IMG/VR virus record: IMGVR_UViG_3300036398_003815
Span: 1-22,169 of that record
Source of the DNA: a virus
Direction: 5' to 3' (one strand)
DNA length: 22,169 nt
Shown here piece by piece: positions 20,030 through 22,169 of the stretch. Position 1 is the stretch's first letter, and every line of letters starts with the position of its first letter. Both the position numbers and the translations under genes were made by a program. Under the pieces are notes generated by a model. The model saw only the letters and a list, made by a program, of their open reading frames with translations, searched no databases and was not told where the DNA came from.

Positions 20030-20228
20030 TCGGATTCCAGACCCTCCCCTTGGGGGCTGTCCAGTTGCGGAAGGCGTCAACAGCATTGACCCAACTAGTC
20101 TCTAATGGCGCGTTCCACTCATGCTCTGGTGGGAAGTTCCAAGGATAGGGTCGGGGTGGATAAGAAACACAACCACTTGTAATAAGTAGTGCAATTACTA
20201 TCCCTGCTCTTTGAAATCGTAAAACCAT
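19938..20228 (-). CDS. Small lipoprotein, possible outer-membrane spanin
   Basis: A 96-residue protein with a lipoprotein signal: basic MVLRFQR, hydrophobic AGIVIALLIT, then lipobox TSGC with Cys20. The mature part starts proline-rich (SYPPRPYPWNFPPEHEW) and continues acidic. The start is supported by a strong AGGAGG directly upstream inside the preceding gene, giving a 31-base overlap. A small Pro-rich lipoprotein next to an exported coiled-coil protein could be the o-spanin half of a lysis pair, but no endolysin or holin is seen here, so this is tentative. Its 3' end overlaps the oppositely oriented HNH gene. Confidence 0.6.
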   Translation of the reverse strand: MVLRFQRAGIVIALLITSGCVSYPPRPYPWNFPPEHEWNAPLETSWVNAVDAFRNWTAPKGRVWNPIIREYEPDFGYEIELLKALPLDTEEHELYQ

Positions 20229-20845
20229 AGCTCCTCCTCGCTTTCGCTAACCCAGCGGCTTCCTGTGCTTTCGCAGCTAAATTCTTGGCTAAATACCTTC
20301 CAGTCGGGCTTTTGGGGAAACTTCTTGGCAATGAACGATCCCCCGTCCATCCACAGCACACGATTGTTGGGCTGGATAAAGTATTGCCCATCGCCCGCAA
20401 ACACATGTCCGCACTTATGCCCAGCCGCCATCTCGCCGTAGCCACTGGTATAGTGGGGGCCGAAACACCAGTCCAGCGTAAACATATACTTCCCCTTTTC
20501 AAAGGTTTTGTTCTTCAACATGATGTTTGCTGCACGGTTTTTGCAATAATCGTACATTGTAACGCTACAATAGTAGCTCATGGAGTCCCAGAGTTGTATC
20601 CAGTCCAACGGGTAAGATGTGCCTCCAGTCTCATCAGTATGGAGGTAATGGATCGGGACACGGGCATGCTGGCTTCCGTATTCGGTCATCACACTAAACA
20701 ACCCACACCGCTGGGGGATCGAGGTGAAGGCAAATACCTCGACTAGCTGTCTCTCCCTGCTGACGCAGGGTTCCAAATCGTAGAAGAACCCCTCATCCAC
20801 GAAGGCAAAGAATGTGGGGATATTGACGTTGAGATAGTTGCTCAT
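20198..20845 (-). CDS. Hypothetical phage protein rich in Cys and aromatics (215 aa)
   Basis: A 215-residue protein with no signal peptide or membrane segment. It is rich in Tyr, Phe and Trp and has about nine cysteines (e.g. EPCVSRE, QRCGLFS, YYCSVTMYDYCKNR, LDWCFGPH, HKCGHVF, FSCESTG). The repeated 'F-V-D-E-G-FFYDLEPC' and 'GDGQYFIQPNNRVLWMDGGSF' strands suggest a mixed beta protein. I do not recognise a family. It is coupled by ATGA to the exported coiled-coil gene before it and overlaps the lipoprotein gene after it, so it sits inside an apparently envelope-directed group while itself lacking an export signal. Confidence 0.6.
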   Translation of the reverse strand: MSNYLNVNIPTFFAFVDEGFFYDLEPCVSRERQLVEVFAFTSIPQRCGLFSVMTEYGSQHARVPIHYLHTDETGGTSYPLDWIQLWDSMSYYCSVTMYDYCKNRAANIMLKNKTFEKGKYMFTLDWCFGPHYTSGYGEMAAGHKCGHVFAGDGQYFIQPNNRVLWMDGGSFIAKKFPQKPDWKVFSQEFSCESTGSRWVSESEEELWFYDFKEQG

Positions 20846-21120
20846 TGGTCGGCAATTTTACGCAGGAGTCTTGTCTGTTCGCGCAACTCCGAAAGTTGGC
20901 GGCTGGCCGTAATCTCCGCATCCAATCGTGCGTTTGACTCCGCCAACTCCGCATTAATACGGCGAAGAGTCGAAAGATAGGTATCTTCCTTTGGCTTAAT
21001 ATCCACAGACCCATTAATGACTTGTATCCGCCCCGAATCCAAATCATAGACCGTCCCGTTGAACGATCCATCTTGTGCCTGAACGCTAGTGACCAATACT
21101 AGTAGTAGTAGTTTTTTCAT
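20842..21120 (-). CDS. Exported coiled-coil protein, possible spanin-like partner
   Basis: A 92-residue protein from the ATG at 21120, beginning with a typical signal peptide (MKKLLLLVLVTSVQA, cleavage before Gln16). A short beta segment (NGTVYDLDSGRIQVINGSV) precedes an alanine/leucine/arginine heptad-like helix (about 48-92; LSTLRRINAELAESNARL, ELREQTRLLRKIAD). The reading frame stays open upstream to an ATG at 21300, which would add 60 residues and turn the hydrophobic stretch into an internal anchor. I prefer 21120 because the signal-peptide layout is textbook. A periplasmic or membrane coiled-coil protein beside a small lipoprotein fits a spanin-like pair, without proof. Confidence 0.6.
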   Translation of the reverse strand: MKKLLLLVLVTSVQAQDGSFNGTVYDLDSGRIQVINGSVDIKPKEDTYLSTLRRINAELAESNARLDAEITASRQLSELREQTRLLRKIADQ

Positions 21121-21191
21121 AAAGAAATTGGAAGCGGGGTGGCGCAACTTCATTGGCCCCCCAGCCTTTGAAGCCTTTGCATTTTCATGCC

Positions 21192-21226
21192 GAGTCTCCC
21201 CGCCTCCAAAAATTGGGAGAGGACTC
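21192..21226. repeat. Inverted repeat, 9 pairs with bulge
   Basis: GAGTCTCCC (21192-21200) pairs with GGGAGA...CTC (21215-21220 and 21224-21226) with a three-base bulge and a 14-base loop. It lies inside the open upstream extension of the exported coiled-coil gene and may be a leader structure on the minus-strand transcript. Confidence 0.45.
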
Positions 21227-21301
21227 AGGTCGCTCAACCCCGCATTCGCAGTGTTGCCCTCAATGATCCTCTCCGAAGTATTCATAGATACATAGACCAT
21301 A

Positions 21302-21314
21302 GCCCCTTCGGGGC
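21302..21314. repeat. Perfect short hairpin GCCCC-TTC-GGGGC
   Basis: A five-pair GC stem with a three-base loop. On the plus strand a run of seven T follows only after eight bases, so it is a poor intrinsic terminator. On the minus strand the 3' arm contains AAGGGG just before the ATG at 21300, so it could hide a ribosome site for the longer version of the ORF. Confidence 0.4.
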
Positions 21315-21370
21315 GTTCAATGTTTTTTTGAGCGTTTTTGAACTTGCCATGTCTGACCCTTTGTGAGAAG

Positions 21371-21389
21371 TTACATCAGTCTGATGTGA
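21371..21389. repeat. Palindrome TTACATCA-GTC-TGATGTGA
   Basis: Eight positions pair (six perfect around the GTC centre, plus two outer pairs, one a wobble in RNA). Its 3' arm overlaps the first bases of the A arm of the large structure beginning at 21387, so the two cannot form together. It may be an operator-like site or a third alternative fold. Confidence 0.45.
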
Positions 21390-21538
21390 GAACCCAGACG
21401 ATTCAATATGAACACTACTCTAACAATAAATATTAATCTGCCATTCAAGTGGCGGGGTGAGGGAGCATCTAGCAGTGTTCATTGTCGGGTTCTCAATCAT
21501 CCCACGCCCCGTCATTTGAGTGGCAATTTTATTTATTG
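21387..21538 (+). ncRNA. Interleaved long inverted repeats: candidate RNA switch/pseudoknot leader of replication gene
   Basis: Repeat A: 21387-21395 (TGAGAACCC) pairs with 21487-21495; 21397-21399 with 21484-21486; 21408-21416 (ATGAACACT) with 21474-21482. Repeat B: 21424-21432 (CAATAAATA) pairs with 21530-21538; 21435-21437 with 21526-21528; and 21439-21464 with 21500-21525, where 25 of 26 positions pair (21 Watson-Crick, 4 G-U, one A-A). Order is A-B-A'-B', so the loop of stem B contains the partner of stem A. Stem B ends two bases before the ATG of the replication protein, where no Shine-Dalgarno is seen. The 7-base link between A and B is too short to span a full 37-pair stem, so the two stems should compete. 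Function as an RNA is inferred. Confidence 0.6.
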
Positions 21539-21540
21539 CT

Positions 21541-22059
21541 ATGAGCAAACATCAAACCATCTATAGAGTAATTAACCCAGTCGGGTTCTTTCAGACGCCA
21601 AACGAACTACCGCGAGATCCGCGCATGTCTTTCGGGGCAAAGGGGGTAATGTCCCTTGTCTTGAGTAATTGTGATGAGTGGGAGGTAACCCGCGACTACC
21701 TGTTGCGCCACACCAACGAGCCTGCCAACAGAGTAAAGAAGTATATGAAGGAACTGGAATCCTTTGGCTATGCTCACCACAAGATTGAAAGCTTCGGGCG
21801 GGGAACCTTCCGCAACATCTGGACGTTCTACACTGTTCCGCTTCCCGCCGATAAGAGAAGCAACAAGACCAACTGGCGCGGAGTTATCGATCTCAAGGTT
21901 TTGGAAGATCGAAATATCGACGATCGAAAACCTTCAGATCACCAGAATACCATTCCTAAGAATACAATTAATAAGAATACTATCTATGATACCGAAAGTA
22001 TTGTATCAGGTTATGGGGATGAGGAAGGGTATCAGGGAGAAATTCGGGGATTGTGGTAA
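21541..22059 (+). CDS. Winged-helix replication initiator/replisome-organiser-like protein
   Basis: A 172-residue protein taken from the ATG at 21541 (MSKHQTIYRVINPVGFFQTP); an in-frame GTG at 21520 would lie inside the stem B sequence and is less likely. Residues 15-95 match the N-terminal winged helix of phage replisome-organiser/DnaD-like proteins: F-x-Q-T-P-NELPRDPRMSFGAKGVMSL, then WEVTRDYLLRHTNEPANRVK, then YMKELESFGYAHHKIES, then a wing with GTFRNIWTFYTV. The C-terminal part is charged and Asn-rich (ENRNIDD-like, IPKNTINKNTI) with no clear fold. Such proteins bind the phage origin and help load the helicase; a DnaB-type helicase is encoded about 3.5 kb away. The leader upstream carries the long inverted repeats, suggesting translational or origin-linked control. 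Alternative: a plain transcription regulator. Confidence 0.65.
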   Translation: MSKHQTIYRVINPVGFFQTPNELPRDPRMSFGAKGVMSLVLSNCDEWEVTRDYLLRHTNEPANRVKKYMKELESFGYAHHKIESFGRGTFRNIWTFYTVPLPADKRSNKTNWRGVIDLKVLEDRNIDDRKPSDHQNTIPKNTINKNTIYDTESIVSGYGDEEGYQGEIRGLW

Positions 22060-22063
22060 TCGG

Positions 22064-22132
22064 ATGAAATCCCGAAATAATCCAGTTACTGACCGAACCG
22101 ATAAGCCGCGCAGCGCAAGGGTTCCGCGATGA
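22064..22132 (+). CDS. Tiny ORF (22 codons) coupled to next gene
   Basis: A 22-codon ORF beginning MKSRNNPVTDRTDKPRSARV starts four bases after the replication-protein stop. Its TGA overlaps the next ATG as ATGA. It is basic and has no recognisable domain. It could be a translated coupling peptide or chance. There is weak G-rich sequence upstream but no clear ribosome site. Confidence 0.25.
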   Translation: MKSRNNPVTDRTDKPRSARVPR

Positions 22133-22169
22133 TAACGCAATCTCAATACCAAGCCTACCTTACAACTCC
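22129..22169 (+). CDS. Partial CDS at right edge
   Basis: An open frame starts at the ATG at 22129 (MITQSQYQAYLTT) and runs off the window. The ATGA overlap with the 22-codon ORF and the same direction as the replication gene make it a probable start of the next gene. Only 13 full codons are visible, so nothing can be said of its function. Confidence 0.4.
   Translation, partial: MITQSQYQAYLTT

Follow-up and report, generated by a model that had tools for sequence, protein, structure and literature searches.

Control of initiator synthesis by RNA is classic for plasmids and, to our knowledge, has been little described for tailed DNA phages. In plasmid initiator leaders, a short loop pairing activates translation. 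The initiator leaders of ColIb-P9 (repY/repZ), IncB and IncL/M are cited in PMC10286972 and PMC10724649, the former of which states that in I-complex plasmids translation of a leader peptide is required for initiator expression. PMC6733600 describes the maturation-gene leader of MS2 as a folding timer (citing van Meerten et al., 2001), and the hok and aapA3 mRNAs as having metastable co-transcriptional hairpins that keep the toxin start closed or guide closed folding.

Here we analyze a leader preceding a replication-initiator gene in the window, that is, the whole stretch of DNA studied, a 22,169-base IMG/VR virus record of a tailed phage. A preliminary description, made from the sequence alone, had noted two interleaved inverted repeats, A and B, and interpreted them as alternative RNA structures. 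The interlocked element at 21387–21538 on the plus strand (order A-B-A′-B′, RNA of ~155 bases) is confirmed, and the present analysis adds an overlapping 52-codon ORF, three versions of stem A, and a different cassette found in the same slot of most related phages.

Like the I-complex-type plasmid leaders, the locus has a replication-initiator gene preceded by RNA structure and by an overlapping candidate leader ORF, its pairings are interleaved (pseudoknot order), and a closed helix is predicted over the initiator start; the sequestration of this start by a stable helix is seen here purely as computed opening costs. Unlike in the plasmids, the host replicon is a tailed phage, the ORF is a candidate, no Shine-Dalgarno sequence is involved, no antisense RNA has been found, and stem A, itself a long helix, is predicted to exclude B. 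With the MS2 leader, the locus shares a transient fold, predicted here, in which the start is accessible until a stable fold shuts it, and the order characteristic of a kinetic timer, the open fold first and the closed one later, is obtained in minimum-energy folds of transcript prefixes; however, here the RNA would be a transcript of a DNA phage with two long helices in the A-B-A′-B′ order, and the MS2 structure is a cloverleaf. In hok and aapA3, an early metastable hairpin is also replaced by a stable long-distance fold, as predicted here, but at our locus the first fold leaves the start open, and the gene encodes an initiator, not a toxin. Finally, riboswitches and attenuators (Rfam families) also feature mutually exclusive helices before a gene, whereas in our case there is no family match, no ligand-binding core is recognized, the helices share no bases, and exclusion would be due to topology. 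The element would act in the manner of plasmid initiator leaders or of the timer in MS2; by the tests made, we do not file it as a member of either.

Genomic Context

The window encodes a terminase, a DnaB helicase and other phage genes, and is thus a virus record rather than a plasmid replicon; it is probably a fragment, and contigs of ~70 kb occur among its relatives. Searches against isolated phages produced no match at the DNA level and none for the terminase. The gene behind the leader (21541–22059, plus strand) encodes a 172-aa protein of the replication-initiation or helicase-loader type, as judged by PHROG matches, the best one being to PHROG 4707 (replication initiation, E 1.4e-14), with PHROG 186 (DnaD-like helicase loaders, E 2.6e-9) also matched. 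In related phages this gene is the first one in a rightward operon with an HNH gene. Its start was set at ATG 21541, and GTG 21520 was rejected, because two related contigs, L095 and L100, have GCG at the latter position. Relatives of the protein in isolated phages all have less than 60% identity (26–36% among the matches listed), and no copies of the gene were found in bacterial or archaeal genomes. The C-terminal peptide IVSGYGDEEEYQGEIRGLW (21994–22056; also considered in L005, L010, and L014) is near-identical across gene types that are ~50% identical overall; it may serve as a tail that binds a partner, or it may mark a recombination boundary. Most genes of the phage lack Shine-Dalgarno sequences, and AU-rich stretches precede most starts; the L006 sequence was set aside in the accompanying survey of starts.

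A guessed promoter at 21342–21372 (plus strand; TTGCCA, then TGTGA adjoining GAAGTT), suggested by its position and partial conservation of the stretch, would place the RNA start at about 21379, just 5′ of stem A; a consensus promoter scan did not call this candidate. A palindrome at about 21371–21389, considered as an operator, is not conserved and was rejected.

Upstream of the leader, a hairpin, AGCCCCTTCGGGGC, followed by GTTCAATGTTTTTTT (21301–21332), is situated between divergent genes. It is retained with both types of the downstream cassette described below (L066 and others), and in L066 it has a compensatory change, CCGC/GCGG. The divergent gene at 20842–21300 (minus strand) has a signal-peptide-like start MKKLLLLVLVTSVQAQ near 21120, and the ATG listed for it, at 21300, probably lies upstream of the true start; a later start would lengthen the non-coding divergent region. 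The next gene (20198–20845, minus strand) encodes a 215-aa protein matching PHROG 3704 ("ferredoxin"), while its homologs in cyanophages and Pelagibacter phages (33–39% identity) are annotated as PurM or phosphoribosylaminoimidazole synthetase, and these conflicting names suggest an unclear annotation.

Structure of the Leader

The 5′ strand of stem A (21387–21416, plus strand) consists of a lower helix (21387–21395 and 21397–21401), a 7-nt AU-rich bulge (21402–21408), and an upper helix (21409–21416), while the 3′ strand (21474–21495), located within the loop of hairpin B, contains the upper (21474–21481) and lower (21482–21495) helices. As defined by the fold of 21385–21496, pair counts and co-varying versions, the stem has 22 pairs, that is, a 9-bp lower helix, a 1-nt bulge, 5 bp, the 7-nt bulge, and 8 bp, with two further weaker pairs in the window's own sequence. 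The preliminary description had placed stem A at the same coordinates, which stand, and had counted 21 pairs, which we correct to 22. In longer folds, a second copy resembling the 3′ strand of A (21580–21592, inside the initiator gene) pairs with the 5′ strand; this copy is a product of VGFF codons, is absent from the other gene type, and was discarded.

Stem B comprises 37 pairs between 21424–21464 and 21500–21538 (plus strand). Its 5′ strand sits in the loop of hairpin A and contains a small local hairpin at about 21437–21456, whereas the 3′ strand includes the AU-rich stretch that precedes the initiator ATG. Stem B has a loop of ~35 nt, and its core contains four G-U pairs (21444–21520, 21449–21515, 21452–21512, and 21458–21506) and one mismatch, A-A at 21460/21504. 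Folding reproduced what had been reported for this stem, namely its coordinates, the number of pairs, the four wobbles and the mismatch in the core, as well as its end at 21538, two bases before ATG 21541.

In the comparison with shuffled sequences, proposed in the preliminary description, no shuffle folds as well as the whole element, A, or B. The stretch 21380–21545 has the MFE of –60.6, compared to –37.6 ± 3.6 for shuffles (z –6.4, 0/200), and the z-scores are –9.4 for B alone and –4.9 for the prefix holding A (0/200 in both cases). The minus strand of the same stretch yields a weaker signal (z –3.1, 2/200), and the plus strand folded as single-stranded DNA has z –4.9.

Only 7 bases separate the 5′ strands of A (ending at 21416) and B (starting at 21424), as had been noted previously, and 4 bases separate the 3′ strands. 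Such linkers are too short for an A-B-A′-B′ pseudoknot of this size, and hence complete A and complete B should not coexist, while B might be compatible with the lower half of A. The linker geometry thus supports the initial suggestion that A and B are alternative states.

Conservation and Covariation

Protein and DNA searches identified 15 other IMG/VR contigs carrying the element, two of them cut off by the contig end, and seven distinct leader types were compared. A covariance model of B, applied to 50 sources, had one match per phage, found only before genes of the initiator family, and the element always adjoins such a gene directly. In the most diverged homolog, L107, whose leader is 65% identical, both helices are kept, with stem A composed of a 9-bp base, an interior break, 5–6 bp, a 7-nt AU-rich bulge, and a 9-bp top, and in this leader, as in the window, no shuffle equalled either fold.

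The upper helix of A occurs in three versions, TGAACACT/AGTGTTCA, TGAAACAAG/CTTGTTTCA, and AGTGCAAGC/GCTTGCATT. Paired with their own partners, they have energies of –11.9, –11.9 to –14.8, and –13.4 kcal/mol, respectively, while crossed partners pair more weakly, at –0.9 to –9.3 kcal/mol. A count by alignment column gives six pairs of A in which both sides are changed and a proportion of 95.5% pairing cells, which exceeds all 500 shuffles (0/500 as good) and all slid versions. As the sequences are related and fall into approximately three version families of A, independent covariation events are few. Compensatory change in related phages, on which the preliminary description had made its proposal depend, is thus found in A.

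Stem B varies in another manner. Twenty-four of its 37 pairs are invariant across homologs, one pair is changed on both sides (A-U to G-C, 21443–21521), and three are mismatched in some homologs. Ten pairs vary on one side only, and all ten do so via G-U on the plus strand and none via A-C, the combination that reads as G-U on the minus strand; the chance of ten out of ten is ~0.001 if both kinds are equally likely and the ten are treated as independent. This bias points to the plus-strand RNA as the active molecule, and, together with the compensatory change in A, supports selection on RNA, which had been proposed based on the wobbles.

The leader of L010 is 99% identical to that of the window, while the first 300 bases of the gene are only 57% identical; on the contrary, in L004 the gene is 95–99% identical and 11% of leader sites are changed, almost all of them within or next to upper A. 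The leader thus behaves as a separate module that is exchanged among gene types, and in the latter case a single recombination tract could have carried both strands of A. Moreover, L080 has a homologous initiator gene whose leader lacks such a fold (z –0.8), and hence the switch is optional rather than essential.

In most related phages, comprising at least 22 contigs, the slot between the conserved upstream hairpin and the HNH gene is filled by an alternative cassette of ~620–760 bases without a convincing ORF, which replaces both the switch and the initiator. It is exemplified by L024 (891–1490, minus strand of the locus), with the same slot occupied in L016, L019, L020, L026, L028, L043, L046, L048, L057, L064, L066, L070, L084, and L085. 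The cassette contains near-invariant stretches and hairpins of variable size, has compensatory changes in 10 of 114 predicted pairs and no match in Rfam, and may thus represent a large structured RNA. Past the slot, the HNH gene encodes 176 aa when preceded by the switch and initiator (L003, 6589–7119) and ~96 aa when preceded by the ORF-poor cassette (L024-type loci).

Discussion

We assign a probability of about one half to the reading that the 5′ leader of the initiator mRNA is a cis-acting two-state RNA switch, open in state A and closed in state B. Such a switch appears undescribed, and it would probably control phage DNA replication. The growing transcript would first yield the 5′ strands of A and B and the 3′ strand of A, allowing hairpin A to form, and upon the arrival of the 3′ strand of B, the far more stable 37-bp helix B would become the best fold. 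Minimum-energy folds, as distinct from kinetics, of growing prefixes starting at the guessed position 21379 agree with the earlier suggestion that A can form first during transcription: A is the best fold from ~100–120 to ~140 nt, and B wins from ~145 nt in the window and ~150 nt in L107. The energy of the leader with the 3′ strand of B unpaired is –42.4 kcal/mol, changing to approximately –62 kcal/mol for the transcript up to the ATG and –67.8 kcal/mol with 40 more bases.

Opening of 31 bases around the initiator AUG is computed to cost ~17 kcal/mol when B is possible and 8–9 kcal/mol when its 5′ strand is blocked, in line with the proposed clamping of the start by B, and the median cost for 14 other genes of the phage is 7.2 kcal/mol. 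The same contrast is seen in L004 and L107, with 8–10 kcal/mol in the blocked state. With Shine-Dalgarno sequences missing from most genes of the phage, the main factor should be how far the AUG region is single-stranded, and these costs, together with the scarcity of Shine-Dalgarno sequences, favor a switch acting on translation. However, the DnaB start of the same phage costs 19.8 kcal/mol to open without any such design. In state A, the AU-rich, Shine-Dalgarno-free initiator start would be about as open as those of other phage genes, and in state B it would be locked at the base of B. State A might allow for a limited burst of initiator from young transcripts, as a folding timer similar to that of the MS2 leader, or might be held by some factor, while state B would shut the synthesis down, limiting the initiator dose. 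On the other hand, B exceeds A in stability by some 20 kcal/mol, so A may not last long enough to matter.

An unlikely but live rival, or extension, of the switch is coupling to a leader ORF, as in plasmid rep leaders, with ribosomes on the 52-codon candidate ORF MNTTLTININLPFKWRGEGASSSVHCRVLNHPTPRHLSGNFIYCYEQTSNHL (21408–21566, plus strand) unwinding B and opening the initiator start. This ORF is uninterrupted in all homologs, begins at one and the same structural position (where the 7-nt bulge has its edge), and extends 26 nt into the initiator gene; a ribosome placed in the 5′ strand of B makes the model lose B and gain A; and leader-peptide coupling is known for plasmid initiators (PMC10286972). 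If the ORF were translated, the arrangement would resemble the leader-peptide control of I-complex plasmid initiators. But the coding signal is weak, with 22 of 39 residues kept between the window and L107 against the mean of 18.3 under a null that keeps B pairing (P ~0.05, or ~0.03 when the lack of stops is included), and changes are distributed evenly over codon positions. Moreover, the ORF has no Shine-Dalgarno sequence, its likely start in L107 is GTG, and no relatives were found in Pfam, PHROGs, phages, or bacterial and archaeal genomes. Some of the sequence conservation could nevertheless be due to this overlapping ORF. A 14-codon GTG ORF at 21476, behind the Shine-Dalgarno-like GAGGGAG, was dismissed, being lost in L004 and L107 as judged by eye. 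As A would hide the start codon of the 52-codon ORF, each of the two states would expose one of the start codons and cover the other. We consider rather improbable the combined reading of a two-state RNA switch in which two long helices without shared bases exclude each other by pseudoknot topology alone, the starts of the leader ORF and the initiator gene are exposed in opposite states, and the diversified versions of stem A define specificity or immunity in the control of phage replication.

Compared to the two-state switch, readings as a terminator, a DNA origin or a known riboswitch are weaker. For transcription attenuation, B with a U-rich stretch would be an intrinsic terminator and A, by excluding B, an antiterminator; the GC-rich part of B is indeed followed by AATTTTATTTATT (AATTTTTTTTGTTGTT in L107) and the two stems are mutually exclusive, but the U-tract score is ordinary (equally high scores occur at 13–14% of positions in the window, and at 6% for L107), the loop measures ~35 nt, and a terminator scan made no call there. 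AU-rich stretches before most starts of the phage explain the U's behind B, and we regard attenuation as quite improbable. As to riboswitches, Rfam 15 had no match at the gathering score, and permissive thresholds produced chance-level matches on the other strand (E 3.8 and 6.7), in agreement with the preliminary description, which did not recognize the element as a known riboswitch class.

The leader might also be a target of an antisense or other trans-acting RNA, with the versions of A serving as specificity types, as in plasmid copy control. The three upper-A versions do assort independently of the initiator gene type, and there is a weak promoter match on the minus strand (21555–21526), but one such match is fewer than the 1.7 expected by chance and the minus strand has no pairing constraint of its own, making this highly improbable. 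The likelihood that the repeats act as DNA, be it as a structured origin of replication or as a pair of sites bound by protein close to the initiator gene, is slighter still. Such a role would fit the adjacency to this gene, the folding of the plus strand as single-stranded DNA, and inverted repeats that change in step, possibly as two sites of one binding protein. It is at odds with the exclusive use of plus-strand G-U in the one-sided changes of B, with the decoupling of leader and initiator sequences (99 vs. 57% identity for L010, and the reverse for upper A), and with the homologous gene of L080 that has no element. A search for iterons in 20900–22169 found short two-copy families only, and the structured origin, offered initially as an alternative, gains no support.

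If true, the two-state switch, conserved in several versions among phages with mostly Shine-Dalgarno-free gene starts, would provide a compact model, directly open to testing, in which the folding order of a young RNA sets the dose of a replication protein.
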